Notes under the pieces: generated by a model | Databases searched by the model: none | What the model was told of the DNA's origin: nothing | Seen by the model: the letters and a program-made list of their open reading frames with translations, nothing else | Origin: Chloroflexi bacterium RBG_19FT_COMBO_55_16 | Lineage (GTDB): Bacteria; Chloroflexota; Anaerolineae; Anaerolineales; UBA4823 | DNA: 13,362 nt | Assembly (NCBI GenBank): GCA_001795335.1 | Contig: MGOK01000128.1 | Location: 1,991 to 15,352, forward strand | Reading direction: 5' to 3' | Position numbers and translations under genes: made by a program | Part shown: one piece after another, positions 1-13,362 of the stretch | How positions within the stretch are numbered: the first letter of the stretch is position 1 | How the letters are laid out: each line of letters begins with the position of its first letter

Positions 1-236
1 CCACCAGCCCAGACCCTGCGGAGGCAGCCGAAAGGACAGACCAGCGGAGACGCGTTCGAGCAGTGCTCGCCCAGATGCAGCCGCGCGCCGCGAAGGTGTT
101 GATTTTACGCTTTTCAGGTTTTACTTACGCCGAGATCGCAGCCGCCATCGGAGTGGCGCCTAATTCAATTGGCACTTTGCTGGCGCGCGCCGAAGGAGAA
201 TTTGAGAACATCTACCGTAAGTTAGAAGGAGCATGA
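1..236 (+). CDS. ECF-type RNA polymerase sigma factor, C-terminal part (5' truncated by window edge)
   Basis: Reading frame 3 is open from the window edge to a TGA at 234-236, giving the last 77 residues of a protein. The visible part is a sigma-70 region 4 helix-turn-helix: the run VLILRFSGFTYAEIAAAIGV is the usual scaffold and first helix (cf. 'GFSYEEIA..LG'), followed by PNSIGTLLARAEGEF as the recognition helix that would contact the -35 element. Regions 2 and upstream lie outside the window. The stop overlaps the ATG of the next gene (ATGA, 233-236), an arrangement typical of an ECF sigma factor and its anti-sigma partner. An AGAAGGAG sequence inside the sigma 3' end (224-231) serves the next gene. 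Its target promoters cannot be deduced from this fragment. Confidence 0.88.
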   Translation, partial: TSPDPAEAAERTDQRRRVRAVLAQMQPRAAKVLILRFSGFTYAEIAAAIGVAPNSIGTLLARAEGEFENIYRKLEGA

Positions 237-1414: not shown

Positions 1415-1432
1415 GGTAAAATCGAGACTCGA
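1395..1432 (+). promoter_or_regulatory. Candidate promoter for the ABC transporter genes, with adjacent small palindrome
   Basis: TTGCAG (1395-1400) and TAAAAT (1417-1422) are separated by 16 nt, acceptable for a sigma-70 type promoter, though the -35 box is weak. The perfect 11-bp palindrome TCGAGACTCGA (1422-1432) begins at the last base of the -10 box and covers the expected transcription start, where an operator could act. The promoter overlaps the anti-sigma stop codon (1412-1414). This is a motif-based guess. Confidence 0.35.
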
Positions 1433-1437
1433 AACGG

Positions 1438-1476
1438 AAAGCGTGAAACGTGGTCACGCATCACGTTTCACGCTTT
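1438..1476. repeat. Long perfect palindrome, terminator-like hairpin (repeat copy 1)
   Basis: The arms 1438-1452 (core GCGTGAAACGTG, 1441-1452) and 1462-1476 (core CACGTTTCACGC) pair perfectly over 15 bp around a 9-nt loop. The right arm runs into TTTTA, so the hairpin could terminate transcription after the anti-sigma gene. If the promoter at 1395-1422 is real, it could instead act as a leader hairpin before the ABC genes. A related sequence occurs at 9956-10002, so this is probably a copy of a dispersed palindromic repeat rather than a one-off terminator. Confidence 0.7.
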
Positions 1477-1519
1477 TACGTTCCTACGCCTTGCTTTTCA
1501 CGGATCACGAGTTCAATTG

Positions 1520-2449
1520 ATGTCTGCTGCCTCCCTTCCACCTGCCATCGAAATCCATGGATTACGGAAAGAATTCGGCGATAAAATAGCTGTCGCGGAC
1601 CTCACTCTGCGTGTCGAGCGCGGGGAAGTGTTTGGTTTCTTGGGGCCAAATGGAGCCGGCAAGACCACCGCGGTCAAGATGTTGCTAGGGTTGATTCACC
1701 CGACGGCCGGGGAAGGCCAGCTGCTCGGTGCGCCGCTTGGCGATCACCGCCGGCGCGCCCGGGTTGGTTTCTTACCAGAACATTTCCGCTTTCATGACTG
1801 GCTGACAGCGACTGAATTTCTCACGCTGCATTGCAACCTCTACCACATGCCGCGCGACATCACCGACCGGCGCGTGCCTGAATTATTGGAACTGGTCGGC
1901 CTGAGTCCCCATGCCGGGAAGAGATTGCGCGCCTTTTCGAAGGGCATGCTCCAGCGCATTGGCCTGGCTCAAGCTTTGCTCAATGACCCACAGTTGGTCA
2001 TCCTGGATGAGCCAACTTCCGGGCTAGACCCGGTTGGGCGCCGCCTGGTGCGGGATATCATTCGCGAGCAATGTGAGCAGGGCACCACCGTATTCCTTAA
2101 TTCGCATCTGCTTAGCGAGGTGGAGATCACCTGCGATCGTGTAGCGTTTATCAAACAAGGCGAAATCCTGCGCACAAGCCAGCTGCAAACCCTGGTCGAA
2201 GGGGAGCTGACTGTGGAAGTGCGCGCCCGCAACCTGAGGCCAGAGATCGTCGCTGGGTTGTCTCGCTGGAGTCAGAATGTGCGCGCCGACGGAGAGCATC
2301 TATCCTTAACCCTGATGAACGAATCCGATTTGCCGCTTATCAATCGATATCTGGTCGAGGGCGGAGTCGACGTATTTGCCCTGCGGCCGCAGCACCTTTC
2401 GCTTGAAGACCTGTTCATTCAGATTGTCGGCACGGATGGAGGCCTGTGA
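1520..2449 (+). CDS. ABC transporter ATP-binding protein
   Basis: 309 residues from ATG 1520; a TTG directly upstream (1517) is an alternative start, and neither has a good Shine-Dalgarno sequence. All ABC ATPase signatures are present: Walker A GPNGAGKT (42-49), an atypical Q-loop region GFLPEHF (83-89) with Glu where Gln is usual, signature FSKGMLQ (139-145), Walker B LVILDEPTSGLDP (159-171) and the switch His196. The region after about residue 220 is the regulatory tail common in exporter-type ATPases of the CcmA/NosF kind. It is followed directly by a permease gene, with which it should form an ABC-2 type complex: two ATPases driving a membrane partner. The substrate cannot be told from sequence. 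Position after an ECF sigma/anti-sigma pair hints at an envelope-related role, but the candidate promoter at 1395-1422 allows separate control. Confidence 0.93.
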   Translation: MSAASLPPAIEIHGLRKEFGDKIAVADLTLRVERGEVFGFLGPNGAGKTTAVKMLLGLIHPTAGEGQLLGAPLGDHRRRARVGFLPEHFRFHDWLTATEFLTLHCNLYHMPRDITDRRVPELLELVGLSPHAGKRLRAFSKGMLQRIGLAQALLNDPQLVILDEPTSGLDPVGRRLVRDIIREQCEQGTTVFLNSHLLSEVEITCDRVAFIKQGEILRTSQLQTLVEGELTVEVRARNLRPEIVAGLSRWSQNVRADGEHLSLTLMNESDLPLINRYLVEGGVDVFALRPQHLSLEDLFIQIVGTDGGL

Positions 2450-3285
2450 TGGCGACGCTGGTCATAGCTCGTCTCACCTTTCGTGAAGCTGCCCGGCGCA
2501 AGATCCTCTTGGCGGCGTTGCTCCTGGGGATAGTTTTTTTAACCATCTATGGCCTCGGATATCACTATGTAAATGTAGAATTGAACCGCACTGGCAGCGG
2601 TCCAGGTATGTTACAGCGCAATGAGATCCGCAACTTTCTGCTGATGGCCGGCCTGTATGTAGTTAACTTCCTCACTGTCATGATGGCAGTCCTGACTTCG
2701 GTAGATACCTTATCCGGTGAAATCGCCTCCGGGACAATCCACACGTTGGTTTCCAAACCACTGCAACGTTGGGAAATCATCCTGGGCAAATGGTTGGGAT
2801 TTACCGGTATGCTAACCCTCTACCTGCTGCTCATGGCTGGGGGCGTGATCGGGTTGGTATTCTTAATCTCGGGATACATTGCCCCCCACACCTCGCAGGG
2901 GCTTGTGCTGATGTGGCTCAATGGTGTTCTTCTGCTGGGCGTCTCTCTCCTGGGTGGGGCGATGTTCTCCACGCTTGCCAATGGGGTAATGGTCTTCGGG
3001 CTTTACGGCATCGCCTTCTTAGGCGGTTGGATTGAGCAGATCGGCTCGTTTATCCAGAATCAGACGGCGGTCAATATCGGGATTATCTCCAGCCTGATTA
3101 TCCCGAGCGAGGCGCTCTGGAAACGGGCAGCCTTCGAGATGGAGTCTCCTCTGGTGAGGGCACTGGGTTTTTCACCCTTCTCCGCGCCAACTGTCCCCAG
3201 CCCGGTGATGGTTGGCTACGCCGTCGTCTACGCCATTGTCGCATTGATCCTGGCGATCCGGCAGTTCAACCGAAGGGATTTATAG
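2449..3285 (+). CDS. ABC-2 type transporter permease
   Basis: 278 residues with about six hydrophobic segments (near 20-40, 65-87, 112-140, 150-175, 178-195 and 252-272). The N-terminus (ARLTFREAARRKILLAALLL) and the SGEIASGTIHTLVSKP segment followed by RWEIILGKW are characteristic of NosY-like ABC-2 permeases. It should be the membrane half of the transporter whose ATPase ends at the same base. The start chosen is ATG 2449, six nt after GGAGG (2438-2442) and overlapping the ATPase stop by one base (TGATG). GTG 2446 is an alternative giving one extra residue. The tight coupling implies equimolar synthesis with the ATPase. Substrate unknown. Confidence 0.88.
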   Translation: MATLVIARLTFREAARRKILLAALLLGIVFLTIYGLGYHYVNVELNRTGSGPGMLQRNEIRNFLLMAGLYVVNFLTVMMAVLTSVDTLSGEIASGTIHTLVSKPLQRWEIILGKWLGFTGMLTLYLLLMAGGVIGLVFLISGYIAPHTSQGLVLMWLNGVLLLGVSLLGGAMFSTLANGVMVFGLYGIAFLGGWIEQIGSFIQNQTAVNIGIISSLIIPSEALWKRAAFEMESPLVRALGFSPFSAPTVPSPVMVGYAVVYAIVALILAIRQFNRRDL

Positions 3286-3289
3286 CTCA

Positions 3290-4294
3290 GTGCGCTCTGT
3301 GATGCGCTTTGCCAGTGGGGCATACCTGGTTTTGCTCCTGGTCTGGCTTATGGCCTACCTGCTGACCGGGGATCGTTTTACTTTCATAGCCCTGGTTAAC
3401 TACCTGGCTGTCTACCTTTTCTTCCCCTTACCGCTGGTTCTGATCGTTGCGCTCCTCTGCAAGGAACGCAACTTGTGGATCGGTTTTTCCCTGGGCCTTA
3501 TTGCCTTCCTTTGGCTATGGGGAGGCCTTTTCGTACCGAGCCTCAAGCGCCCCTCGCCAACGGAACCCTCCCTAACGGTGATGACTTATAATGTTTTGGC
3601 CTGGCATCAATATAACGAAGCGGTGTTGCAAACCATTCGCGCCGAAGACCCCGACATTGTCCTTTTGCAAGAGCTCAACCGCGGCCTGGCCCGGACGCTG
3701 GAGACGGAGCTGGGCGAGGAGTATCCCTATCAGGTGCTTGAGCCAGTGGATAACCCCACCGGGATTGGTGTGATCAGTAAATATCCAATCCATCCAACTG
3801 GCGAACAATTATCCTTAAAATGGGTTGGTGGGCCGCAAGTACTCAAGTTGCTTTGGAATGGGGAGACAGTGAGACTGGTCAACTTCCACATGTATCCGAC
3901 AACCAGCCTTGGTCCTGCCAATGTCGTCGAAGCCAGTATCCGTTTACGGGAAGCGGAGGCGCGCCTGCTCGCGGACCTTGCCCACCTTTCAGGGCCGGCG
4001 ATCATGGGCGGCGATGCCAATTCTGCGCCGCTTAGTAAATCCTATCGAATCCTGACCAGCGAATTACAGGATGCCTGGCATCCGGCCGGCTTTGGGTTGG
4101 GCCATACTTTTCCCGGCAGCACCATCCCAGGCAGCGATCGCCCTCGCCTGGGTAGCTGGTACGTACCTCCCTGGCTGGTGCGGATTGACTATGTGTTCCA
4201 TTCCGCTGATTGGGTCACGCTGTCGGCCAGGTTAGCGCGCTTTGATGGGGTTTCTGATCACCGGGGAGTCGTCGTGGTGCTCAAGCTCAAATAG
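3290..4294 (+). CDS. Membrane-anchored endonuclease/exonuclease/phosphatase (EEP) family protein
   Basis: 334 residues. Three hydrophobic segments at about 10-27, 32-57 and 62-82 anchor the protein. The rest is an EEP fold with the full metal/catalytic set in order: TYNVLAW (Asn101), DIVLLQEL (Glu128), NFHMYP (His200), GGDANSAPL (Asp242, Asn244), RIDYVF (Asp300) and SDHRG (Asp323-His324). The family hydrolyses phosphodiester or phosphomonoester bonds in DNA, RNA, inositol phosphates or sphingolipids. The specific substrate is not readable; a membrane-tethered form could act on phospholipid or extracytoplasmic substrates. The start is GTG 3290, four bases after the permease stop, with GAAGGG at 3272-3277 somewhat far upstream; ATG 3302 (Met5) is possible. 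The close spacing suggests one operon with the ABC genes. Confidence 0.85.
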   Translation: MRSVMRFASGAYLVLLLVWLMAYLLTGDRFTFIALVNYLAVYLFFPLPLVLIVALLCKERNLWIGFSLGLIAFLWLWGGLFVPSLKRPSPTEPSLTVMTYNVLAWHQYNEAVLQTIRAEDPDIVLLQELNRGLARTLETELGEEYPYQVLEPVDNPTGIGVISKYPIHPTGEQLSLKWVGGPQVLKLLWNGETVRLVNFHMYPTTSLGPANVVEASIRLREAEARLLADLAHLSGPAIMGGDANSAPLSKSYRILTSELQDAWHPAGFGLGHTFPGSTIPGSDRPRLGSWYVPPWLVRIDYVFHSADWVTLSARLARFDGVSDHRGVVVVLKLK

Positions 4295-4378
4295 TTGGGG
4301 GAAGTTCGCTTGAAAAGAACGACCGTAAATCTAAATCATCCAAAATTGCGTAACATTATCATAATATCCCGGTGATGA

Positions 4379-4387
4379 TGGTAAAAT
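4379..4387 (+). promoter_or_regulatory. Extended -10 promoter box just before the CDP-alcohol phosphatidyltransferase gene
   Basis: TGGTAAAAT (TGn plus TAAAAT at 4382-4387) ends 7 nt before ATG 4395, so transcription would start at or next to the start codon. No Shine-Dalgarno sequence is present, which fits a leaderless mRNA. No convincing -35 box was found. The rest of the 100-bp gap 4295-4394 shows no gene and no clear terminator. Confidence 0.5.
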
Positions 4388-4394
4388 CCTGACT

Positions 4395-5603
4395 ATGCTC
4401 TCGCGGTCTTTAAATCATAATTCTTCCCTCACCAGCCTGCGCATCAGGTGGCTTGGTCTGGCTTTGGCTTTAACCCTGGTGGTGACGACCGGCTCTGCCT
4501 GGTTATATACAGCCTGGCAGCCGGGTTATGCCTTGCGTTGGCTGGCCTTGGCAGCTGGTATGTCCGTCTACTTGTCGGGGATACTCTGGCGGTATCTGCC
4601 GGATAACCACCGCGCTGAGGAAAAGCGCCTCTTGCCCTATTTCGGGGCTGGCAACAACCTTACCCTACTGCGTGGAATCCTTTTGGTGGCTCTGGCAGGA
4701 TTTCTGTTTTCCCCGCTTCCGCCGGGGGGGCTGGCCTGGCTGCCCGGCCTTATCTACACCCTGGCTGCCATCGCCGACCTGTTCGATGGATATCTGGCGC
4801 GCCGGTCGAACCAGGTGACACAATTGGGCGAGAAGCTGGATATGAGCCTGGATGGGCTGGGAGTCTTGATCGCCTCGGTTTTGGTCGTGCAGTACGGGCA
4901 AGTGCCAGCCTGGTATCTACTCGTTGGGCTGGCGCGTTATCTCTTCCTGGCCGGCACCTGGCTGCGGCGAAGGTTGGGGAAGCCGGTCTATGAACTGGCA
5001 TCCAGTTCCACGCGTCGCCCCTTTGCCGGAGCTCAAATGGGGCTGATTGCCGTTGTCATGTGGCCGATTTTTTCGCCGCCGGGGACCTCTCTTGCAGCCA
5101 CACTGTTTGCCTTACCATTTCTGATCGGTTTCACCCGGGATTGGCTGACGGTTAGCGGAGCCCTCATCGCTGGAGCAGATCGATCCAACCTCAAGTCTGA
5201 CGTTTCAGGAATCACTTCTTCATCTGCCGCTATGGAGCCGGGTTATTGGCCAGGGCGCTTCATTGCAGATTGGGCACCAGTCATTTTACGTGCCAGCATT
5301 ATCATTCTCCTCGCCCCAGTCTTGGTTCAAAGAATAGGGGGTTTTCCAGCCAGTTTCTGGACCGCCCTGGCTAACTTGTTGGCTGTGGCCGGGGTGATTC
5401 TGCTGGCTTTCGGGGCTGCCGGGCGTGTGGCTGCTTTGGCCGTGTTGTTTTCCCTCGGCATCTACCAACAGTATTCAAATCTTACTGTGACCGATTCCAT
5501 CGCGATTGTCGCGGCATGTGGTTTATTCTTCCTGGGGACGGGCGCCTTCTCCTTGTGGACCCCGGAGAAGCGGATCATCAACAAACGAATTGGGGAGGCC
5601 TGA
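4395..5603 (+). CDS. CDP-alcohol phosphatidyltransferase with C-terminal DoxX-like membrane domain
   Basis: 402 residues, about twice the usual family length. Two N-terminal hydrophobic segments (about 16-40, 46-64) precede the transferase domain, which holds a perfect CDP-OH-P motif: D128-x2-D131-G132-x2-A-R-x8-G-x3-D149-x3-D153. These Asp residues bind the metal and CDP in enzymes that move a phosphoalcohol or phosphatidyl group from a CDP donor to an alcohol, as in phosphatidylglycerophosphate or phosphatidylinositol synthesis. From about residue 292 there are four more hydrophobic segments with a DoxX-like pattern (GAAGRVAALAVLF, then LGTGAFSLW), suggesting a fusion; that part is a weaker call. 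The start is ATG 4395, with a -10 box just upstream. The following flippase-like gene uses a ribosome binding site inside this gene's 3' end, so the two are coupled. The acceptor alcohol is unknown. Confidence 0.85.
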   Translation: MLSRSLNHNSSLTSLRIRWLGLALALTLVVTTGSAWLYTAWQPGYALRWLALAAGMSVYLSGILWRYLPDNHRAEEKRLLPYFGAGNNLTLLRGILLVALAGFLFSPLPPGGLAWLPGLIYTLAAIADLFDGYLARRSNQVTQLGEKLDMSLDGLGVLIASVLVVQYGQVPAWYLLVGLARYLFLAGTWLRRRLGKPVYELASSSTRRPFAGAQMGLIAVVMWPIFSPPGTSLAATLFALPFLIGFTRDWLTVSGALIAGADRSNLKSDVSGITSSSAAMEPGYWPGRFIADWAPVILRASIIILLAPVLVQRIGGFPASFWTALANLLAVAGVILLAFGAAGRVAALAVLFSLGIYQQYSNLTVTDSIAIVAACGLFFLGTGAFSLWTPEKRIINKRIGEA

Positions 5604-5607
5604 ACCC

Positions 5608-6651
5608 TTGCTACCCAGGACATGGAACGAGAGCCCTAAGCCAGTTGATCCGCAAGGGGATCAGCCATTAGCCACCCGTGCGCGAAGGCCTTTTTGGTTG
5701 CTTTTCTGGTTGGCCATTCCGCTGGTCTTGTGGTGGTCTTTCAGGGATATCCCCCTCCGAGAGGTCTGGGGAATCTTGCGCAGCTTGCAGTTGGATTCTG
5801 TCCTGATCCTGGTCAGCCTCAATGTTGCCATCCTGCTGCTGTTTAGCAGTCGCTGGTGGTTGATCCTGCGCACCCAGGGATACGCCCGCTCCTACTTATC
5901 CCTGGTCGGTTATCGACTGGCAGGGTTTGGCATCACTTACTTCACCCCAGGCCCACAGCTGGGGGGCGAACCGTTCCAGGTCTACCTGCTGCATCGCCAC
6001 CAAGGAGTTCCCCCCACGACAGCAGTCGCTAGCGTAACCCTGGATAAGATGCTGGAGCTTCTGGCCAATTTCACCTTCCTCTTGGGAGGGGTGGCGACGA
6101 TCACGGCTGCCGGATTGTTCTCTCGCCCGTCCAGCCTGGCGTTGTTGCTCGTGCCACTTGGGCTGCTGGCCTTGCCAATCGGTTACTTGATCGCTCTCTG
6201 GAATGGCCGGCTGCCGGTCACCCGCATGTTTGCCGGGATTTCACTTGCTTTCCCAAGATCATCCTGGCAGCCGAAGGCGCAAGCCGTTGCGCTTTCTGCA
6301 GAGAGTCAGATTGCGCAGTTTTGCAAGGGTCATCCTTGGGCGCTCGTTCAGGCCCTGTTCCTTTCATTCATGATCTGGGCCGTACTTATATTTGAGTTTG
6401 GTTTAGCCTTACGCTTTTTGGGGTTGCGCCTCGAATTGCCTCAGATCATCACCTTGCTTACCGCAGCTCGGATCGCCTTCCTTCTGCCCATCCCTGCTGG
6501 CCTAGGCACTCTGGAAGCCGGTCAGGTGCTGGCGACGCAGGCCTTGGGGCTCAACCCCGTGGTGGGCATCAGTCTGAGCCTGCTGATCCGGGCGCGAGAC
6601 ATTGGGTTGGGGGCTTTGGGGCTGTGGTGGGGCGGTGTCTTGTCCCGTTGA
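5608..6651 (+). CDS. Flippase-like membrane protein, lysylphosphatidylglycerol synthase TM-region family (YbhN/UPF0104)
   Basis: 347 residues from TTG 5608, chosen because GGGGAGG (5592-5598) lies 9 nt upstream. The same frame is open back to 5506, but that would overlap the preceding gene by about 100 bp and give an unlikely N-terminus. The protein is highly hydrophobic, with roughly seven or eight membrane segments. It carries family landmarks: TPGPQLGGEPFQVYLLHRHQG at about 113-133 (the conserved PGG-x-GE-like loop), LDKMLELL at 145-152, and a Pro/Gly-rich IPAGLGTLEAGQ segment near the C-terminus. Relatives include the MprF flippase domain and proteins thought to move lipid-linked substrates across the membrane. 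It follows the CDP-alcohol transferase by four bases, so the pair may make and translocate one lipid. The substrate is inference only. Confidence 0.8.
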   Translation: MLPRTWNESPKPVDPQGDQPLATRARRPFWLLFWLAIPLVLWWSFRDIPLREVWGILRSLQLDSVLILVSLNVAILLLFSSRWWLILRTQGYARSYLSLVGYRLAGFGITYFTPGPQLGGEPFQVYLLHRHQGVPPTTAVASVTLDKMLELLANFTFLLGGVATITAAGLFSRPSSLALLLVPLGLLALPIGYLIALWNGRLPVTRMFAGISLAFPRSSWQPKAQAVALSAESQIAQFCKGHPWALVQALFLSFMIWAVLIFEFGLALRFLGLRLELPQIITLLTAARIAFLLPIPAGLGTLEAGQVLATQALGLNPVVGISLSLLIRARDIGLGALGLWWGGVLSR

Positions 6652-6689
6652 ATCTAACCCGTCCATTTATCTTCAAGCTTAATTCAGTC

Positions 6690-6696
6690 AAAGGAG
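6690..6696 (+). promoter_or_regulatory. Strong Shine-Dalgarno for the small membrane protein
   Basis: AAAGGAG lies 9 nt before ATG 6706 and fixes that start. The 54-bp gap 6652-6705 contains no other clear signal. Confidence 0.7.
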
Positions 6697-6705
6697 AGAG
6701 AAACG

Positions 6706-7071
6706 ATGAAAGCAAACCAAATGAAGTTCGGAACACTTCAAATCGGGATCTTCTTGCTAACTTTGGTGACGGCCGCCGTCCATTTGATCATTTTGAACAT
6801 CCAAATGGTCAATCTCAAAGGCAGTATCGATCCCCTCTTTACCCTCAACGGGTTGGGCTACCTAGTCTTGCTGGCCGCATATTTCTTGCCGATCCCGCTA
6901 GCCAAAAACAACCGCAGCCTGGTACGTTGGGTTTACATAGGCTTTACCATCCTAACGATCCTAGCCTGGGTGGTCATGGGAGTAAAATCCGGACCCGGAG
7001 CGTTATTTGGGTATATTACCAAAATCGTCGAGGTAGCGTTGGTCGTGCTCCTTTGGTTGGACAGGCGCTAA
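6706..7071 (+). CDS. Small four-helix membrane protein of unknown function
   Basis: 121 residues, almost entirely membrane. Four hydrophobic segments lie at about 10-30, 41-62, 69-90 and 97-118, separated by short loops; the C-terminus is basic (LDRR) and predicted cytoplasmic. There are no Cys residues and no recognisable catalytic or transport motif. A strong Shine-Dalgarno sequence supports the start. The gene sits between the flippase-like gene and GTP cyclohydrolase II, with 54 and 39 bp gaps, all on one strand, so it could be a membrane accessory of either neighbour. I do not recognise a named family. Confidence 0.75.
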   Translation: MKANQMKFGTLQIGIFLLTLVTAAVHLIILNIQMVNLKGSIDPLFTLNGLGYLVLLAAYFLPIPLAKNNRSLVRWVYIGFTILTILAWVVMGVKSGPGALFGYITKIVEVALVVLLWLDRR

Positions 7072-7096
7072 CTTCAGGAAGGAAAAGCCCATCCAT

Positions 7097-7105
7097 TGGG
7101 ATAAT
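7097..7105 (+). promoter_or_regulatory. Extended -10 promoter box before ribA
   Basis: TGG directly followed by GATAAT (7100-7105) ends 5 nt before ATG 7111. No ribosome binding site is at a usable distance; the nearest AAGGA is about 25 nt away. This fits a leaderless transcript starting at or close to ATG 7111. Only 39 bp separate the genes here, so there is no room for an FMN riboswitch. Confidence 0.45.
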
Positions 7106-7110
7106 TTGTT

Positions 7111-7767
7111 ATGAAAAAACTCGAGGTTGAACGGAAAGTTCGCGCCCGCATCCCGACTACCGAAGGAGCGTTCCAACTGTACCTTTATCACAGCAGTCGG
7201 GATGACAAAGAGCATCTGGCCTTGGTGATGGGCGATGTAGAGGGCAAGGAGAATGTCCTTGTCCGGGTACATTCGGAATGTTTCACTGGGGATGTGTTGG
7301 GCTCAAGGCGTTGCGACTGCGGCGAACAGTTGACGCATGCCCTGCAGATGATCGCCGGAGCTGGGGAAGGTGTCCTGATTTACCTGCGCCAGGAGGGGCG
7401 GGGGATCGGATTGCTGGATAAATTGCGCGCCTATAATCTCCAGGACCAGGGTTATGACACTGTCGAAGCCAACCTGGCTTTGGGTCACCAGGCCGACGAG
7501 CGCGATTACACCATCGCGGCGCGCATTCTCGAAGATTTAGGAGCACGCTCGGTGAAATTGCTGACCAATAACCCTCTGAAGATCGTCCACCTGCGGAAAT
7601 TGGGTATACCCGTCATCCGGCGTGTACCCCTGGAGGCGACAATTACTGCTGAAAATGCCGGTTACCTTTTCACCAAAGTCCAGCGCATGAACCACCTGTT
7701 GAACCTGGGACCGTTGTCGATGGCGAGAGTTAAGGGTGGCAATGGCGCACACGATGGCGCTGATTGA
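7111..7767 (+). CDS. ribA: GTP cyclohydrolase II
   Basis: 218 residues; the first ~200 align along their length with E. coli RibA. The enzyme opens GTP, releasing formate and pyrophosphate, to give 2,5-diamino-6-ribosylamino-4(3H)-pyrimidinone 5'-phosphate, the first riboflavin intermediate. Seen: zinc ligands Cys57, Cys68, Cys70 (SECFTGDVLGSRRCDCG), RQEGRGIGL (93-101), Tyr108 in RAYNLQDQGYDTVEAN, DERDY (129-133) and LLTNNP. Tyr108 matches E. coli Tyr105; retaining it argues for the normal product rather than the formyl-pyrimidine made by some Streptomyces homologues with Met there. The C-terminal motif reads RMNHLL instead of the common KMGHLL, followed by an unusual ~18-residue tail that overlaps the next gene. 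No DHBP synthase domain is attached. The neighbours (reductase, PTPS homologue, glycosyl- and methyltransferase) suggest it feeds a specialised pathway. Confidence 0.93.
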   Translation: MKKLEVERKVRARIPTTEGAFQLYLYHSSRDDKEHLALVMGDVEGKENVLVRVHSECFTGDVLGSRRCDCGEQLTHALQMIAGAGEGVLIYLRQEGRGIGLLDKLRAYNLQDQGYDTVEANLALGHQADERDYTIAARILEDLGARSVKLLTNNPLKIVHLRKLGIPVIRRVPLEATITAENAGYLFTKVQRMNHLLNLGPLSMARVKGGNGAHDGAD

Positions 7768-8500
7768 CGAAATCCTTCCTGACATCGAAAGACTGCCAGG
7801 CGCGGCGGGGCGCCCTGCAGTCACGCTCAGTTATGCTCAAAGCCTGGACGGGAGCATTGCCGCGCGCCGGGGTTTCCCCCTCCAGATCAGCGGCCCAGAA
7901 TCGACGCAGCTGACTCACCAGCTGCGCGCTGTGCACGATGCTATTCTGGTTGGCATTGGCACCGTGCTGGCGGACGATCCGCACTTGACTGTCCGCCACG
8001 GGCAAGGTAAGGACCCCCAACCGGTTGTCCTGGATAGCGAGTTGCGGTTTCCCCTGGGAGCCAAATTGCTGCGTGGGCGATCCCCCTGGATTGCCACTAC
8101 CGGCCAGGCTGATGGAAATAAGGCAGGATCTTTAACAGCTGCCGGAGCGATCTTGCTGACTATGCCTTCCGATGCAGTTGGCAGGGTGCATCTTCCAAGT
8201 TTACTGGCGCGCCTGTGTGAGCTGGGGATAAAGAAACTGATGGTGGAGGGGGGCGCCGCGGTAATCACCAGCTTTCTCCGCCAGCAGATGGTCGACTTCG
8301 TCGTACTGACCATTGCCCCAGTGTTTGTCGGTGGCCTGCATGCAACGGAGGACATTGCAGGACAAAATGCCATGCGAAGCGAAGCTTCGCCATTTTCCTC
8401 CCACTCATTCCCCAGGCTGCAAGGATTAGGGACCGCGCAGTTGGGGGACGATCTGATCGTATGGGGCAAACCCGAATGGCCTGGATTACAATTGGGTTGA
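7742..8500 (+). CDS. RibD C-terminal-type reductase (stand-alone pyrimidine reductase-like)
   Basis: 252 residues from ATG 7742, which has AAGGG (7732-7736) five nt upstream. GTG 7736 and ATG 7754 are alternatives. The gene overlaps ribA by 26 bp and is therefore translationally coupled to it. The whole protein is the DHFR-like RibD_C domain: VTLSYAQSLDGSIA (28-40), ILVGIGTVLADDPHLTVR (68-85), and VEGG (168-171) for NADPH and substrate binding. The N-terminal cytidine-deaminase-like domain of bacterial RibD is absent. The expected reaction is NADPH-dependent reduction of the ribosyl side chain to ribityl on the pyrimidine made by GTP cyclohydrolase II, as in the fungal/archaeal order (Rib7, reduction before deamination). 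The C-terminal region (~210-225) is coded by a palindrome that looks like an insertion. Confidence 0.85.
   Translation: MAHTMALIDEILPDIERLPGAAGRPAVTLSYAQSLDGSIAARRGFPLQISGPESTQLTHQLRAVHDAILVGIGTVLADDPHLTVRHGQGKDPQPVVLDSELRFPLGAKLLRGRSPWIATTGQADGNKAGSLTAAGAILLTMPSDAVGRVHLPSLLARLCELGIKKLMVEGGAAVITSFLRQQMVDFVVLTIAPVFVGGLHATEDIAGQNAMRSEASPFSSHSFPRLQGLGTAQLGDDLIVWGKPEWPGLQLG
8364..8396. repeat. Intragenic palindrome with terminator-like shape in the RibD-like gene
   Basis: A perfect 12-bp palindrome GCGAAGCTTCGC (8379-8390) is preceded by another GCGAAGC-type unit (8374-8380) that can pair with GCTTCGC (8384-8390) around a 3-nt loop. The flanks AAAATG (8364-8369) and CATTTT (8391-8396) also pair, leaving CCAT bulged, and the 3' side ends in TTTT. 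It codes for a low-conservation stretch near the C-terminus, so it may be a small inserted repeat that kept the reading frame. Confidence 0.55.
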
Positions 8501-8515
8501 GGTTTTCCTACCCCC

Positions 8516-9535
8516 ATGGACCGCCTTTCCCTTTATTTCACAGCTCCACGGCAAATTTCTGTGCGGCAGGAGACATTGCCTTCACCCGGACGTGGGCAAG
8601 CCCTGGTGAGAACCCTCTTATCTGCCATCAGCCCTGGCACGGAGCTGCTGATCTATCGCGGAGAATTCCCTCCTGAGCTACCCTTAGACGAGAATATCCC
8701 TGCCTTGGCCGGCGGGTTCGCTTACCCTATAAAGTACGGCTACGCGGCTGTCGGGGAGGTGATTGGTCTAGGCGCTGATTTGGACTCCACCTGGTTGGGG
8801 AAACAGGTCTTTGCCTTTCAACCTCATGCCAGCCATTTCCTGGCTCCTGTGGAAGAGATGCTGCCTCTCCCGGAGGGCCTTGCCGTTGAAGAAGCAGTAT
8901 TCCTCCCCAACATGGAGACCGCCCTGAACTTTGTGCTGGATGGACAACCCCTGATCGGGGAGAAGGTAGTCGTATTCGGCCAGGGTATTGTCGGTCTGCT
9001 CACTACCGCGCTGTTGGTGCAGTTTCCTCTGGCGGACCTGATCACGTTGGACCGTTACCCTCTGCGCCGCCAGGCGTCGTTGGATTTAGGCGCCCAGGCC
9101 AGTTTGGATTCATCCGATCCTCAGGAGCTCAAACTGGGGCGCGCCAGGCTGGGAGGATCTTTCTCCGGTGCAGACCTGGTGTATGAGCTCTCTGGGAATC
9201 CGGTCGCTCTGGATCAGGCGATTGATTACTGTGGTTTTAATGGGCGCGTCGTGATCGGCTCGTGGTATGGCAGCAAACGCGCCAGCTTAGACCTGGGTGC
9301 GCGCTTCCACCGCAGCCGCATGCGCCTGATCAGCAGCCAGGTCAGCAGCCTGGCCCCCGAACTCAGTGGGCGTTGGGGAAAAGCGCGCCGTTTCCAGGTG
9401 GCCTGGGAGATGCTCCAAAAGGTGAAACCTTCCCGCTTCATCACCCATCGTTTCCCGATCACCCAGGCTGAAAAAGCCTATCAACTGATAGATCAGGATC
9501 CAAGCCAGACGATCCAGCTGGTGTTGGAGTACTGA
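8516..9535 (+). CDS. MDR-superfamily (zinc-type alcohol) dehydrogenase, BchC-like
   Basis: 339 residues. Medium-chain dehydrogenase architecture: an N-terminal GroES-like domain (~1-125), then a Rossmann domain with VVVFGQGIVGLL (G155-x-G157-x2-G160) and an Asp at the end of strand 2 (LITLDR, Asp179), which favours NAD(H) over NADP(H). The usual catalytic-zinc Cys segment is replaced by SAISPGTELLIYRGE (36-50), as in BchC-like members, and the four structural-zinc Cys are missing; the protein contains only one Cys. FAFQPHASHF (99-108) and LPNMETALNFVLDG (130-143) are further subgroup landmarks. It probably oxidises or reduces an alcohol/carbonyl on the cluster's intermediate. The start ATG 8516 follows the reductase stop by 15 bp and has no Shine-Dalgarno sequence. 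No photosynthesis gene is nearby, so bacteriochlorophyll synthesis is not implied. Confidence 0.83.
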   Translation: MDRLSLYFTAPRQISVRQETLPSPGRGQALVRTLLSAISPGTELLIYRGEFPPELPLDENIPALAGGFAYPIKYGYAAVGEVIGLGADLDSTWLGKQVFAFQPHASHFLAPVEEMLPLPEGLAVEEAVFLPNMETALNFVLDGQPLIGEKVVVFGQGIVGLLTTALLVQFPLADLITLDRYPLRRQASLDLGAQASLDSSDPQELKLGRARLGGSFSGADLVYELSGNPVALDQAIDYCGFNGRVVIGSWYGSKRASLDLGARFHRSRMRLISSQVSSLAPELSGRWGKARRFQVAWEMLQKVKPSRFITHRFPITQAEKAYQLIDQDPSQTIQLVLEY

Positions 9536-9548
9536 GAATCGGCATTAC

Positions 9549-9559
9549 AAGGAAAAGGA
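9549..9559 (+). promoter_or_regulatory. Ribosome binding site for the PTPS-like gene
   Basis: Two overlapping-register purine boxes, AAGGA (9549-9553) and AAGGA (9555-9559), lie before ATG 9568; the second has 8-nt spacing and fixes the start. Confidence 0.6.
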
Positions 9560-9567
9560 TTTGCATC

Positions 9568-9948
9568 ATGTACACCGTTGCAGTCAAACGAGATTTCATC
9601 GCCCAGCATTTTCTCATAGGGGGCGACTGGGGACCCGAGAATGAGTTGCATTCCCATCATTATCAGGTTGAGATTCAGCTGGAAGGTGAGACGCTGGATA
9701 GTCATGGTTACCTGGTAGACATCGTCGACATCGAGCAGAACCTGGAGTCGCTGTTGGCGCGTTTTCGCGACCGGACTTTGAACGAGCTGCCTGAATTTAC
9801 GGGATTGAATCCCAGCATCGAGCATTTTTCCGGGATTCTATGCGAAGCATTCCTTGCTGGAACAAATGCTCCCAATATCAGCGCTGTGACGTTAAAAATC
9901 TGGGAAAATGACATCGCCTGGGCAGCTTACAGACTGAAACGTAATTAA
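9568..9948 (+). CDS. 6-pyruvoyltetrahydropterin synthase/QueD superfamily protein with altered active site
   Basis: 126 residues, normal length for COG0720. The zinc site is intact: His14 (FIAQHF) and His28/His30 in ELHSHHYQVE, matching QueD His16, His31 and His33. The substrate-anchoring Glu is kept (Glu113 in KIWEND), as is NPSIE, corresponding to QueD NPTSE. An ungapped alignment with E. coli QueD from recalled sequence places Glu24 at the catalytic Cys27, Arg67 at Asp70 and Asp68 at His71, so the classical Cys-Asp-His triad is gone. The Gly of the HGH motif is Ser. In PTPS-III enzymes Glu replaces or accompanies the Cys, but usually one residue closer to the histidine pair. The protein should bind a pterin- or pyrimidine-like ring but probably does different chemistry from queuosine or biopterin synthesis. 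It sits between the dehydrogenase and the glycosyltransferase. Confidence 0.85.
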   Translation: MYTVAVKRDFIAQHFLIGGDWGPENELHSHHYQVEIQLEGETLDSHGYLVDIVDIEQNLESLLARFRDRTLNELPEFTGLNPSIEHFSGILCEAFLAGTNAPNISAVTLKIWENDIAWAAYRLKRN

Positions 9949-9955
9949 CGTGAAT

Positions 9956-10002
9956 ACGTGAAACGTGAAAAGATTTTGTGCTTCACGCATCGCGTTTGAC
10001 GG
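9956..10002. repeat. Degenerate palindromic repeat (copy 2) before the glycosyltransferase gene
   Basis: The left arm ACGTGAAACGTG (9956-9967) matches copy 1's left arm in 11 of 12 bases. The right part 9983-10002 (TCACGCATCGCGTTTGACGG) matches bases 1454-1473 of copy 1 in 17 of 20. The copy is an imperfect palindrome (9 of 11 positions, one of the other two a possible G:T pair), with an alternative inner hairpin CGTGAAAAG / CTTCACG. It fills almost all of the 62-bp gap after the PTPS-like gene and ends 8 nt before ATG 10011. Confidence 0.6.
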
Positions 10003-10010
10003 GTTCTCCC

Positions 10011-11108
10011 ATGCGCATTGGCTTGCTGATCTACGGCTCTCTGGAAACCCTTTCCGGGGGTTATCTGTACGACCGCCAGCTGGTGGAGCACTTGCAAGCC
10101 AATGACGACGAAGTGGAGCTCGTCTCCTTACCTTGGCGGAATTACCTGCTCCACCTGGGGGATAACATTTCAACCTCCTTGATACGCCGGTTGGAAAATC
10201 TTCCCGTAGATGTCCTGCTCCAGGATGAACTTAACCACCCCTCGCTATTCTGGGGTAACCGCGTTCTGAGCAAGCGGGTGGCTTACCCCATCATCGCCAT
10301 CGTTCACCATCTCCGCAGCAGCGAAGCTCATCCAGCCTGGTTAAACAAGTTATACCGCAGGGTAGAACGCCAGTACCTGGGAAGCGTGGATGGGTTCGTT
10401 TTCAATAGCCAGACCACGCGCCAGGTGGTTGAAGGATTGATCGGGGAAGGGCGACCTGAGGTCGTGGCTTACCCGGCGGGTGACCGGCTTCACCCAAGCC
10501 TTACCGACGACCAAATTGCTGCCCGCGCCCGGGAACCCAAACCGTTGCGCTTGTTGTTCTTAGGCAACCTTATCCCCCGCAAAGGGTTGCATACCCTCCT
10601 GGAGGCTGTGGCCAGGTTGCCCAGGCCAGCCTGGCGGTTAGCCGTTGCCGGCAGTTTGGAGATGGACAGGTCTTACGCGAACGCCATTCACCGTCAGGTA
10701 GCAGCGAATGGGCTTACAAAGCAAGTGCAGTTTTTAGGCCCGCTAAGAGATGCTGACCTCCTTTCTCATCTCCAAAACAGCCAGCTCCTGGTGGTTCCCT
10801 CAACCTACGAAGGCTTCGGCATCGCCTATTTGGAGGGGATGGGGTTTGGCCTGCCAGCCATCGCCACGACGGCGGGAGCTGCGGGAGAAGTGATCACACA
10901 CGGTGTGGACGGTTTCCTGATTTCCCCAGAAGACGCGCCAGCCTTGGCTGCTTATCTCCTCCAGTTGGTCGATGATCGGGAGTTGCTACTCAAGATGAGC
11001 CTGGCAGCGCGCCGCCGGTACGCCGCTCACCCGACCTGGGATGAGACTACCAGCCGCATCAGGGCTTTCCTGGAGATGATAAAATCCTCCCAGAAGTTGG
11101 TTAGATGA
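10011..11108 (+). CDS. GT4-family (GT-B fold) glycosyltransferase
   Basis: 365 residues from ATG 10011. A GTG at 9978 in the same frame lies inside the palindromic repeat and gives a poor N-terminus, so it was not used; no good Shine-Dalgarno sequence is visible for either start. The N-terminal domain begins [21 protein letters not shown], including the Gly-rich loop of GT-B enzymes. The C-terminal domain has [19 protein letters not shown] (181-199, Arg190/Lys191 for the donor diphosphate), [15 protein letters not shown] (261-275) with the E-x7-E motif (Glu267, Glu275), and [15 protein letters not shown] (289-303). The enzyme would transfer a sugar from a nucleotide donor with retention. The acceptor is not readable; from context it may be the pyrimidine/pterin-derived product or a lipid. 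It overlaps the following methyltransferase by 4 bp. Confidence 0.87.
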
Positions 11109-12034
11109 TGACCTTCGAATATTCCTTCATCCGTTACCTTTCTGCTAAGAAAAGCGTTGACGACCGCGCTCTGAACCGTTATGTCTGGAAAAGCCTGGCG
11201 CAAGCCCTTCCTCAGAGCAGGAAAGATGAGCCGCTGCGCGTCCTGGAAATAGGCGCCGGGATCGGCACCATGTTGGAGCGCGCCATCGCCTGGGACCTGT
11301 TAGAGCATGCTCATTACACCGCCATCGATGCCCAATCCCAAAATATAAAATTTGCCCATATAAACCTGGATAAATGGGCAGCCAAGCGAAATTTCAATGT
11401 CAAGAAAACGGAGCACGGGCTGGTTTTAGCCAACCAGACAAGAGTCGTGACGATCGATTTGGAGGCAATTGACCTGTTCGCTTTCATCGAGCGTGAACGC
11501 AGCCGGGGGACTTGGGACCTTTTAATGGCCCACGCTTTCCTGGATCTGATCGACCTCCCTTCCGCCTTGCTGGACATACTAGGATTATTAATAGATCACG
11601 GCCTTTTTTATTTCACGATCAACTTCGACGGCGTTACCTCTCTTGAACCCCTGATCGATCCCGCTTTGGATGAGCTGATCCTGGCTCTCTACCATCGTAC
11701 AATGGATGAACGCCTCACCGATGGTAAACCTTCTGGAGATAGCCACACCGGCCGGCACCTGTTCACGCAACTGAAGATAGCCGGTGCTCAAATCCTGGAG
11801 GCGGGCAGCTCAGATTGGGTCGTATTCCCCGGCGCGCAAGGGTACCCTCAGGATGAGGCCTATTTCTTGCACTTCATCGTCCACACCATTCATCAGGCCT
11901 TGGAGAACCACCCGGAGTTGGAGCCAGCCCGATTTAACGCCTGGGTTGCTGAGCGCCATGCCCAGATCGAACGTCAAGAGTTAGTTTATATCACTCACCA
12001 ATTGGATTTCGTGGGGCGGAAAGACTGGGGGTGA
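11105..12034 (+). CDS. Class I SAM-dependent methyltransferase-like protein
   Basis: 309 residues. Motif I is clear, [14 protein letters not shown] (44-57), with the acidic post-I residue in YTAIDAQ (Asp75) for the SAM ribose. [16 protein letters not shown] then [15 protein letters not shown] correspond to motifs II and III of the Rossmann-like fold. A later segment [11 protein letters not shown] and a Trp/His-rich C-terminal region ([13 protein letters not shown], after the [10 protein letters not shown] loop) form a substrate part I cannot assign. The start is ATG 11105 (ATGA overlap with the glycosyltransferase stop); ATG 11108 would remove one residue. The tight coupling suggests it acts on the same product as the glycosyltransferase, probably as an O-, N- or C-methyltransferase. 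It is the last gene before a 44-bp gap with a likely new promoter. Confidence 0.82.
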
Positions 12035-12066
12035 AATGACTGATGGTATTAGACGAATTAAACGGG

Positions 12067-12072
12067 TAAAAT
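12067..12072 (+). promoter_or_regulatory. -10-like box just before lspA
   Basis: TAAAAT, preceded by GGG, ends 6 nt before ATG 12079, the same arrangement as at 4382-4387. No clear -35 box is seen in the 44-bp gap. AGGG at 12074-12077 is too close to the ATG to be a normal ribosome binding site, so a leaderless start is plausible. Confidence 0.4.
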
Positions 12073-12078
12073 GAGGGT

Positions 12079-12657
12079 ATGGAAACAGACTGGCAGTCTT
12101 CTTCGATAAGAAATATTAGAGTATACCTGCCTTTGCTTGTTATGGCGAGTTTTGTGATCGTCATCGATCAGGTATCTAAAGCGTTAGTGCGCGCCCAATT
12201 AGAGCTGGGCGCGATCTGGGTCCCGTGGGATTGGCTAGAGCCTTATGCGCGCATCGTCCACTGGAAGAACACCGGGGCGGCTTTTGGGATGTTGCAGAGC
12301 TTTGGCGATGTCTTTACGGTGCTGGCGATCGTCGTTGCCATTGCTATCCTGTATTATTTCCCACAGGTGCCATCTGGCGATTGGCCGCTGCGCCTGGCGA
12401 TGGGACTGCAGTTCGGGGGTGCGGTGGGGAACTTAATCGACCGTTTGAGGATCGGTTGGGTGACGGATTTCATCTCAGTTGGTAGCTTTCCGGTCTTCAA
12501 CGTGGCGGATGCCAGTATCTCGATTGGCGTAGCAGTGCTACTCATTGGGGTCTGGCTGAAAGAGCGCCAAAGAAAGCCCGTCCAGCTATCAGGTGCCCCA
12601 GATTCCGCCTCGGAAAAAACGGCTGATCCGATCCCGGAGGAAGGCCTGGGTGAATGA
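12079..12657 (+). CDS. lspA: Lipoprotein signal peptidase (signal peptidase II)
   Basis: 192 residues, slightly longer than usual because of a short N-terminal extension and a charged C-terminal tail. It is an integral membrane aspartyl protease that removes the signal peptide from prolipoproteins after lipid attachment. Family blocks are present in order: IDQVSKALV (29-37), HWKNTGAAFGML (61-72), GGAVGNLIDRLR (113-124) with catalytic Asp121, and VFNVADASISIG (139-150) with catalytic Asp144. Four membrane segments lie at about 15-32, 76-94, 105-120 and 146-161. The rluD-type gene overlaps its end by 8 bp, the common lspA-rluD order, so this is the start of a housekeeping operon separate from the cluster upstream. 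Confidence 0.95.
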   Translation: METDWQSSSIRNIRVYLPLLVMASFVIVIDQVSKALVRAQLELGAIWVPWDWLEPYARIVHWKNTGAAFGMLQSFGDVFTVLAIVVAIAILYYFPQVPSGDWPLRLAMGLQFGGAVGNLIDRLRIGWVTDFISVGSFPVFNVADASISIGVAVLLIGVWLKERQRKPVQLSGAPDSASEKTADPIPEEGLGE

Positions 12658-13362
12658 GCGCCTGTTCAATATTTATTTTGAAGGAGGAGAAGAGCAACGT
12701 CTGGACAAATTCCTGGTGACTGCCCTGCCAGAATTGTCTCGTTCCCGTTTGCAGGCCTTAATCAAAGCTGGATTAGTAACTATCGACGGTCAGATGGCGC
12801 GCAAAGTGGGGCAATTGTTGGTAAAGCGAGCCCAAGTGCAGGTACGAATCCCTCCTCCCCAACCAAGCGATCTGACCCCAGAAGCGATTCCCCTCGACAT
12901 CGTTTTTGAAAATGCGGATTTGCTGGTGGTGAACAAGCCGGCCGGGATGGTGGTACACCCGGCTGCCGGGCACTCAGCGGGTACCCTGGTTCACGCCGCT
13001 TTAGCACACGTCTCGGATCTTGAAGGGATTGGGGGAGAGCAACGACCAGGCGTTGTCCATCGCCTGGACAAAAATACTTCGGGGCTAATCCTGCTGGCGA
13101 AGAATGATGCCGCCTACCATTGGTTTCAAAATCAATTCCGCGCTCGCCAGGTAGGTAAAATGTACCTGGCGTTGGTCGATGGAGCTCCGCCAACGCCGCA
13201 CGGGCGGGTCGAAGCGGCAATAGGGCGTGACCCGGCGCAGCGGAAGAAAATGGCTGTGGTCCCCCCAAAAAAGGGACGCCTCGCCTTCACCGAGTACCAC
13301 ACCCTGCAAAATTTCCCCGCTCACAGTTTGCTGGAAGTCCACCCCATCACCGGTCGCACACA
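12650..13362 (+). CDS. rluD: RluA/RluD-family 23S rRNA pseudouridine synthase (3' truncated by window edge)
   Basis: The first 237 codons of an open frame that runs off the window. The start is GTG 12650, with GGAGG at 12636-12640 nine nt upstream and an 8-bp overlap with lspA. An N-terminal S4 RNA-binding domain (about 17-60, RLDKFLVTALPELSRSRLQ, then GLVTIDG) precedes the catalytic domain: LLVVNKPAGMVVHP (91-104), then RPGVVHRLDKNTSGLILLAKN (132-152) with the catalytic Asp140 of HRLDKNTSG, and the last visible residues ITGRT begin the conserved GRTHQ-R motif. The enzyme isomerises uridines in 23S rRNA. The choice of rluD over rluC or another RluA-family member rests on the S4 domain and the lspA neighbour; the precise target sites are not known from this fragment. 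Confidence 0.9.
   Translation, partial: MNERLFNIYFEGGEEQRLDKFLVTALPELSRSRLQALIKAGLVTIDGQMARKVGQLLVKRAQVQVRIPPPQPSDLTPEAIPLDIVFENADLLVVNKPAGMVVHPAAGHSAGTLVHAALAHVSDLEGIGGEQRPGVVHRLDKNTSGLILLAKNDAAYHWFQNQFRARQVGKMYLALVDGAPPTPHGRVEAAIGRDPAQRKKMAVVPPKKGRLAFTEYHTLQNFPAHSLLEVHPITGRT

Follow-up and report, generated by a model that had tools for sequence, protein, structure and literature searches.

The window analysed here, a stretch of 13,362 nucleotides from Chloroflexi bacterium RBG_19FT_COMBO_55_16 (contig MGOK01000128.1, positions 1,991 to 15,352), carries a gene module that probably encodes a dedicated biosynthetic pathway leaving riboflavin synthesis before deamination. Its product would be a glycosylated, methylated and probably membrane-associated compound, pterin-like or a diaminopyrimidine. 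Six genes were described in an earlier note on this DNA as consecutive, co-directional and in several cases overlapping, and both the positions and the overlaps are confirmed (32 bases between ribA and ribD_C, 4 bases between the last two genes). They encode a GTP cyclohydrolase II (RibA), a RibD C-terminal reductase (RibD_C), a BchC-like MDR dehydrogenase, a PTPS-fold protein, a GT4 glycosyltransferase and a divergent class I S-adenosylmethionine (SAM) methyltransferase (Table 1). Pfam and NCBIfam scans agree with the family names given earlier, for the methyltransferase only weakly. The span first drawn around the cluster, 7111-12034, holds these six genes but is too narrow, since two genes directly upstream, for a CDP-alcohol phosphotransferase (CDP-OH) and a flippase-like protein (flippase), are repeatedly found with it. 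A Pfam scan of the 14 window open reading frames (ORFs) showed neither a deaminase domain nor ribB, ribH, ribE or GTP cyclohydrolase I (GCH I), which bears out the statement that the remaining riboflavin genes do not lie alongside.

When the PTPS-like protein was used as bait, as the earlier note had proposed, the same partners were found to recur across distant lineages, including haloarchaeal plasmids. A scan of a genome collection with a PTPS alignment gave 520 confirmed matches, of which the best 80 serve as the genome loci here, a sample that leans towards Chloroflexota. Neighbours were counted within 8 kb of the PTPS gene, and in 48 of the 80 loci the gene is flanked by 6 kb or more of sequence on each side (full-flank loci). 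MDR lies near PTPS in 70/80 loci (43/48 full-flank) and GT4 in 74/80 (44/48), although GT4 is a broad family and a few of these matches may be unrelated. The corresponding counts are 49/80 (32/48) for RibD_C, 46/80 (32/48) for the methyltransferase, 43/80 (28/48) for ribA, 31/80 (21/48) for the flippase and 22/80 (15/48) for the CDP-OH gene. A small, weakly DUF7475-like protein is a frequent companion in Chloroflexota loci (18/80; 12/48). The lspA and rluD genes, each near PTPS in 3/80 loci and 2/48 full-flank loci, seldom accompany the module. Unbiased clustering of ORFs from 86 loci ranked the module families first and gave 12/86 for the commonest other family, with the small membrane protein and one family overlapping the PTPS gene (19 loci, probably antisense shadows) set aside.

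The closest relative by gene order is a locus of Chloroflexota bacterium isolate bin26 (L015, genome G001), which reads ABC-EEP-CDPOH-flippase-small protein-ribA-ribDC-MDR-PTPS-GT4-MT, where MT is the methyltransferase. All eight module genes lie within 8 kb in six gammaproteobacterial loci (L053, L061, L071, L072, L081 and L082), and a seventh, L075, is without ribA; in gammaproteobacterial loci the MT-GT4 and flippase-CDP-OH pairs are found on other strands or sides. Minimal sets of ribA-ribDC-MDR-PTPS occur in L026, L031 and L042. The module occurs in varying subsets among Chloroflexota, Alpha- and Gammaproteobacteria and Actinomycetota, in one Cohnella isolate and on plasmids of haloarchaea. 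Other phyla are represented only by metagenome-assembled genomes, titled Calditrichia, Desulfomonile, Binatota, Bacteroidetes and Opitutaceae, labels that may be wrong. Isolates carrying the module whole or in part include Cohnella silvisoli, LSUCC0112, Haloarcula, Rhizobium, Methylosinus and Streptomyces.

Among annotated records, MDR-PTPS-MT is found on haloarchaeal plasmids of Halomicrococcus, Natronorubrum, Haladaptatus, Halobellus and several Haloarcula, mostly with GT4 (absent in Halobellus), and in records of Methylosinus and Rhodobacteraceae SC52 (the latter again without GT4). In a Thiodictyon plasmid cluster it is accompanied by RibD, CDP-OH and cytochrome b561, and in a Streptomyces fungicidicus plasmid cluster by creatininase, ribA and CDP-OH. 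The cluster of Rhizobium SL42 (L126) comprises flippase, CDP-OH, ribA, MDR, PTPS, GT4, MT, RibD and cytochrome b, and that of a Microbacterium plasmid (L128) CDP-OH, MDR, PTPS, GT4, MT, flippase and RibD. The CDP-OH gene is thus also found in haloarchaeal, Streptomyces, Thiodictyon, Rhizobium and Microbacterium loci, and the flippase also in L126 and L128. Of 19 plasmid records matched by PTPS, 14 were examined; MDR lies just upstream in 11 (with one gene between in Natronorubrum) and not in 2, and the fourteenth, L124, carries no annotation and is left out of the counts. With MDR as the query (418 records), four of the six examined among the 30 listed matches have PTPS, MT and RibD beside MDR. 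The Microbacterium module (L128:5279-11054) sits on a 59 kb plasmid typed as mobilizable, and may therefore move between strains.

Whole-genome searches were made in 22 genomes with module loci, hand-picked from the 80 mainly for long contigs and lineage spread; completeness is not reported for these genomes and single absences are provisional. GTP cyclohydrolase II, RibD_C and the PTPS family are each present in 22/22, lumazine synthase (RibH) in 11/22, DHBP synthase in 10/22, GCH I in 17/22 and a flavin mononucleotide (FMN) riboswitch in 14/22. Neither RibH nor DHBP synthase was matched in 11 of the 22 genomes. Each of these 11 has exactly one FMN riboswitch, followed by genes for a permease, an NMT1/THI5-like protein and an ATPase (by eye, and confirmed with Pfam in G001), which is the RibXY(Z) arrangement. 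According to PMC4418817, RibXY from Chloroflexus complemented a riboflavin-auxotrophic ribB mutant of E. coli. With neither synthase detected and a riboswitch-linked importer, the 11 genomes look like riboflavin importers, yet they retain cyclohydrolase II and the reductase. In G001 the cluster holds the only GTP cyclohydrolase II, RibD_C and PTPS matches of the genome; as RibH and DHBP synthase are not detectable there and an FMN riboswitch precedes the importer, the cluster genes do not look like the riboflavin genes of this organism.

A census of 297 genomes from the class of G001 (minimum completeness of 85 requested; module-type PTPS scored at 130 bits or more) points in the same direction. 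Cyclohydrolase II was found in 98 genomes, module-type PTPS in 78 and lumazine synthase in 28. Among the 269 RibH-negative genomes, 67 have both cyclohydrolase and PTPS, 4 PTPS only, 8 cyclohydrolase only and 190 neither, giving a Fisher odds ratio of about 398, which overstates the number of independent events because the genomes are related and incomplete. The 28 RibH-positive genomes divide as 6, 1, 17 and 4 in the same order, and scoring three weak lumazine hits as absent changes the RibH-negative counts to 67/5/8/192. The two genes lie within 10 kb on the same contig in 44 of the 73 census genomes that have both. Recurrence and the genome tests together support the proposal that the cluster is a dedicated pathway from GTP that serves neither riboflavin nor queuosine synthesis.

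The RibA of the window passes the curated GTP cyclohydrolase II models (NF001591 and TIGR00505). Tyrosine occupies the position of EcRibA Tyr105 in the window protein, which was also aligned to 2bz0, and in 54/56 aligned rows; the exceptions are Met in a Streptomyces locus (L004) and Arg in L104. SCO6655, with Met at EcRibA position 105, reportedly gives a formylamino product. The creatininase of the Streptomyces cluster was considered as an ArfB-type deformylase and set aside as weak (ArfB 37 bits against a cut-off of 180; MftE 141 against 172).

The reductase appears to lie on the non-deaminated branch. PF01872 is the only Pfam domain within its 254 aa, with no N-terminal deaminase domain, and alignment to B. 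subtilis RibG places Ser32 at the specificity position of BsRibG Lys151. This column bears on which INTERMEDIATE RibD_C takes, the deaminated or the non-deaminated pyrimidine. Lysine is found there in 0/53 RibD_C proteins from module or auxotroph genomes (S 30, T 10, N 5, A 4, C 3, G 1), counted from 56 rows with three gaps left out, several of the rows not being beside PTPS; the residue of L003 is Gly in one alignment and His in another. For comparison, ten RibDs presumed to serve riboflavin synthesis were taken from ten RibH-positive module genomes, chosen by a frame length of 374-439 aa, with 8/10 near RibH and without a scan for deaminase domains; lysine is found in 10/10 of them. Four further RibDs, alphaproteobacterial and from Microbacterium, have Gln. 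According to PMC3631187, riboflavin RibD reduces the deaminated pyrimidine and its Lys contacts the C2 oxygen, whereas the position is occupied by Thr in yeast Rib7 and by Asn in archaea, and a T35K change in yeast Rib7 moves the preference towards the deaminated substrate. The lack of both a deaminase domain and the specificity lysine suggests that the intermediate is likely to be 2,5-diamino-6-ribitylamino-pyrimidinone phosphate. As a correction to the earlier expectation of a ribitylaminopyrimidine phosphate from GTP cyclohydrolase II and a RibD reductase, the reductase points to the branch without deamination. The window protein scores 129.6 with TIGR01508, the archaeal-type DAROPP reductase model (cut-off 186.45), and one module member, L009, passes it with 189.1.

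The first two genes are also tied together by fusion and replacement. In 19 loci a single open frame spans RibA and RibD_C, and 17 of these frames are at least 433 aa long. On three Haloarcula plasmids an annotated GTP cyclohydrolase IIa stands beside MDR in the place of RibA (PF05165, 272.6 bits in the one scanned); the first step is thus served there by another protein family. In archaea, according to PMC3631187, riboflavin synthesis in any case proceeds by way of the non-deaminated ribityl compound, which would explain haloarchaeal clusters without a RibD of their own. The module resembles this archaeal and fungal (Rib7-type) route in its first two predicted products and in the lack of Lys at the Lys151/Thr35 position, where Ser or Thr is mostly found, but differs in having no deaminase in the cluster and in the missing RibH match of 11/22 module genomes. 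Separately, RibD_C-RibA-SDR triads lie away from PTPS in riboflavin-auxotroph genomes (L099:1315-3525 and L105:1032-3167), with Asn as the specificity residue of RibD_C.

These results bear on the idea, which the earlier note had set against its own proposal, that ordinary riboflavin and tRNA-modification genes have become neighbours by chance. In its favour, the cluster ribA scores as a complete GTP cyclohydrolase II above the curated cut-offs, and neither G001 nor a second genome, G020, has another copy. However, the neighbourhood recurs, genomes without RibB and RibH matches keep the pair, the lysine is missing, the two enzymes share one frame in some loci, the cyclohydrolase is replaced in archaea, and the census contradicts independent occurrence. 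Chance is accordingly an extremely unlikely explanation.

A further rival reading is that the genes supply 5-amino-6-ribitylaminouracil, the F420 precursor (F0 branch). Involvement of the PTPS-IV group in F420 synthesis is stated, as unpublished work, in section 7 of PMC5041015. CofE (PF01996) was found in 12/22 module genomes, including all 11 without RibH, and in 68/71 PTPS-positive, RibH-negative census genomes, and it is associated with cyclohydrolase II among RibH-negative census genomes (odds ratio about 14). CofE is nevertheless common in the census as a whole (214/297), it was not matched in 10/22 module genomes, and 119/195 RibH-negative, CofE-positive census genomes are without both cyclohydrolase II and PTPS. 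Three census genomes with PTPS and cyclohydrolase have no CofE, and the association between PTPS and cyclohydrolase is far stronger. Moreover, F0 needs the deaminated pyrimidine, and the module reductase has neither the lysine nor a deaminase domain. An F420 role is quite unlikely overall, but the near nesting of PTPS within CofE-positive genomes and the association of CofE with cyclohydrolase leave a small probability for some F420 link in this class.

The PTPS-like protein of the window yields an AlphaFold model with a pLDDT of 93.9. The protein belongs to a large family: of 8000 candidates scored, 7997 gave a match at E <= 0.001, 120 of them listed. Its nearest PDB structure is SCO6650 (3d7j; E 3.4e-10, TM-score 0.88), followed by QueD with a TM-score of about 0.78. 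H14, G22, E24, N25, H30, D51, F77, N81, P82, S83 and E85 do not vary in the 80 loci; E113 is found in 79 with one gap. In a phmmer alignment Glu24 falls on E. coli QueD chain residue 27, the catalytic Cys. The window protein reads E24..H28-S-H30 instead of CxxxHGH, and position 67 is Arg or Lys in 72/80 loci, where the QueD-type motif presumably expects Asp. A queuosine role was rejected in view of the missing CxxxHGH and the QueD model TIGR03367 (44.5 bits against a cut-off of 89.25), a score that counts further against chance neighbours; the fold is common to the window protein and QueD (PTPS-I). Proteins of this PTPS branch are nonetheless labelled 6-carboxytetrahydropterin synthase, the queuosine enzyme, among the matches listed and in annotated records.

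The Glu at the QueD Cys position could be taken to indicate a PTPS-III-like enzyme that replaces dihydroneopterin aldolase in folate or pterin supply, and GCH I was not found in 5/22 module genomes. It is present in the other 17, however, and the PTPS-III motif ExxHGH, as given in PMC5041015, does not match, because Asn25 stands three before the first His in 80/80 loci and the window reads HSH, not HGH. The partners GT4, MT and CDP-OH are not known to have a folate role. A folate function is thus very unlikely. The presence of GCH I elsewhere in 17/22 module genomes also means that its absence from the window, correctly reported before, is not telling on its own.

According to PMC5445326, the PTPS-IV cluster (mostly with the motif FGPAQ) has PF00925 and PF01872 as neighbours, as do the window PTPS itself and 43/80 and 49/80 loci, respectively. 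That paper treats PF00925 as GTP cyclohydrolase I/FolE2, the Pfam name being GTP cyclohydrolase II. The window protein reads WGPEN in place of FGPAQ and continues with HSHH, so that Glu takes the Cys position and an HxH pair follows, whereas the FGPAQ proteins of COG0720, SCO6650 among them, have Ala and HGA. Around the FGPAQ proteins lie MDR-PTPS-MT, mostly with GT4, plus CDP-OH, RibD or flippase in varying sets.

The following order of steps is proposed for the pathway. GTP cyclohydrolase II would convert GTP to 2,5-diamino-6-ribosylamino-pyrimidinone 5'-phosphate (DAROPP), and the deaminase-less RibD_C would reduce this to its ribityl counterpart (DARIPP), in which the 2-amino-4-oxo pattern is retained. 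These two steps are well supported by sequence features, co-occurrence and gene replacement. PTPS-fold enzymes anchor the 2-amino-4-oxo pattern with a conserved Glu, and binding of a pterin or pyrimidine through E113 is plausible. Past the reductase, family chemistry suggests that the MDR may oxidise the ribityl chain, that the PTPS-fold protein may bind the MDR product and shape or close a ring, that GT4 and the SAM enzyme may add a sugar and a methyl group, and that the CDP-alcohol phosphotransferase and the flippase-like protein may attach the product to the membrane or move it across.

In a 62-row alignment the MDR family has the conserved motifs SxxSxGTE, YPxxYGY, GSWYGxK and RWxKxRR, with Ser and YGY where the catalytic zinc ligands are expected (presumably Cys and His-Glu), so that the zinc ligands appear to be replaced; a phosphate could be held by its basic residues. 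The suggestion made at the outset, that a sugar and a methyl group are added as tailoring, is supported. The AlphaFold model of MT (pLDDT 91.3) has a SAM-methyltransferase fold, its Foldseek matches are methyltransferases of many kinds, and a PDB sequence search gave no match up to E = 1. The PDB matches of GT4 include the tetrahydrobiopterin glucosyltransferase 5ze7 at 40 bits, not among the best, which are Alr3699, Tll1590, phosphatidylinositol mannosyltransferases and an inositol-phosphate glycosyltransferase; a substrate likeness to the pterin enzyme does not follow. Cyanobacterial pterin glycosides are made with such a pterin-acting glycosyltransferase, but the window cluster differs in having no GCH I. 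Sulfohalopterin, a glycosylated pterin, has been reported from Haloarcula. The CDP-OH protein largely retains the DGxxAR...G...D...D pattern.

GTP cyclohydrolase I reaches a 1-deoxy-2-keto intermediate by an Amadori rearrangement. A rather unlikely extension of the proposed pathway is a GCH I-independent route to pterins, in which the MDR would re-oxidise C2' of DARIPP and the PTPS-fold protein would close the product to a dihydropterin phosphate. Read jointly, the intermediate would be the 1-deoxy-2-keto monophosphate and the later genes would lead to a membrane-anchored pterin glycolipid, a cofactor or pigment common to bacteria and haloarchaea, a prospect just as doubtful.

Several observations weigh against a dedicated pathway with a pterin-like product. 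The zinc ligands of the PTPS-like protein vary (His at position 28 in 62/80 loci, Asn in 18/80), and the FGPAQ branch has Ala at both 24 and 30; with Glu at the Cys position, non-universal ligands make classical PTPS chemistry unlikely. This favours an alternative with the same start, in which the pyrimidine ring stays open and the pathway ends in a diaminopyrimidine glycolipid or exported pigment, the PTPS-fold protein being only a binder or hydrolase; the frequency of CDP-OH and flippase genes fits it as well. Minimal clusters without GT4 or MT, however, still pair MDR with PTPS, which suggests scaffold chemistry and not accessory binding, and an open ring is somewhat unlikely. In full-flank loci RibD_C is missing within 8 kb in 16/48, CDP-OH in 33/48 and MDR in 5/48 (L010-L012, L039 and L059); in G002, the genome of L012, MDR sits beside RibA-RibD_C on a different contig. 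Streptomyces plasmid PTPS-IV genes (L122:6001-6399 and L123:6001-6399) have no module partner within 6 kb, L129 has MDR matches only, and on a Natrarchaeobaculum plasmid (L125:5216-6990) cyclohydrolase IIa overlaps MDR while a hypothetical protein without a PTPS match takes the PTPS place. The genome G020 has lumazine synthase, no DHBP synthase match and, as its sole cyclohydrolase II and RibD_C, those of the module; a riboflavin role shared by the module genes is possible there, as is an incomplete genome (2.1 Mb). Cyclohydrolase II is found without module PTPS in eight RibH-negative census genomes, and in 29 of the 73 genomes with both genes the cyclohydrolase lies away from PTPS (contig breaks may explain some), so that physical linkage alone does not explain their association; the relatedness of the census genomes counts on this side too. 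Lastly, no paper assigning a product or activity to the module was found in a search that did not cover most subscription literature.

The start codon of the flippase-like ORF is uncertain, with conservation in the alignment from about residue 48 onward. Upstream of the module (233-3285) lie genes for a zf-HC2 (anti-sigma-like) protein, a putative ABC ATPase and an ABC-2 permease; the ABC pair, also upstream in L015, is probably a separate unit. Downstream are a housekeeping lspA and an RluD-type gene. No RNA family was matched in the window, and over positions 3200-13362 predicted promoters (6 sites against 5.4 +/- 2.1 in shuffles) and terminators (16 against 11.8 +/- 3.1) are near background.

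Table 1. Genes of the module and its upstream companions in the window.
Feature	Position	Strand	Evidence
CDP-alcohol phosphotransferase (PF01066), extra C-terminal stretch	4395-5603	+	Pfam CDP-OH_P_transf 74 bits
LPG_synthase_TM / flippase-like membrane protein (PF03706)	5506-6651	+	Pfam 129 bits
Small protein, weakly DUF7475-like, probably membrane	6706-7071	+	29.9 bits, below the 31.3 cut-off
GTP cyclohydrolase II (RibA)	7111-7767	+	GTP_cyclohydro2 235 bits; NF001591 266.1 (cut-off 148); TIGR00505 258.7 (cut-off 205.85)
RibD C-terminal reductase (RibD_C)	7736-8500	+	PF01872 159 bits
BchC-like MDR dehydrogenase	8516-9535	+	ADH_zinc_N 31.2 bits, just below the 31.8 cut-off; best NCBIfam bchC 68.6 (291 needed)
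PTPS-fold protein	9568-9948	+	PF01242 85 bits
GT4 glycosyltransferase	9978-11108	+	PF00534 127.5 bits
Divergent class I SAM methyltransferase (MT)	11105-12034	+	weak: best Pfam 21.2 bits; AlphaFold pLDDT 91.3

Other genes accompany the module in particular lineages. A ComB-like 2-phosphosulfolactate phosphatase family is found near PTPS in 8 loci (in L067:1779-2456 between MDR and PTPS), EamA in 7 and PIG-L in 5, and a YceI-family gene in 5 gammaproteobacterial loci (e.g. L053:4412-5011), these families having been assigned by clustering with one representative of each scanned. Cytochrome b561/b genes occur in the Thiodictyon and Rhizobium clusters (L003:11528-12085; L126:10003-10542) and, with YceI, hint at a membrane redox link. 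Such lineage-specific genes fit the late steps of a small-molecule pathway and prove nothing. In Haloarcula marismortui (L006:9001-9374) the PTPS match is split into two overlapping pieces with no annotated gene, and this copy may be broken.

The cluster had been called unrecognised, but it is not wholly so: although no assigned product was found, the PF00925 and PF01872 neighbours of the related PTPS-IV branch had been noticed before (PMC5445326) and SCO6650 has been solved, so that the module is an enlargement of a known orphan and not a wholly new kind. Its presence, whole or in part, in isolates means that the product can be sought directly. If the proposed pathway is correct, the module PTPS members would belong to a separate metabolite pathway despite their queuosine-enzyme labels. 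It would also explain why genomes without detectable riboflavin synthesis retain riboflavin genes, and predictions of vitamin synthesis based on counting ribA and ribD_C would need correcting.

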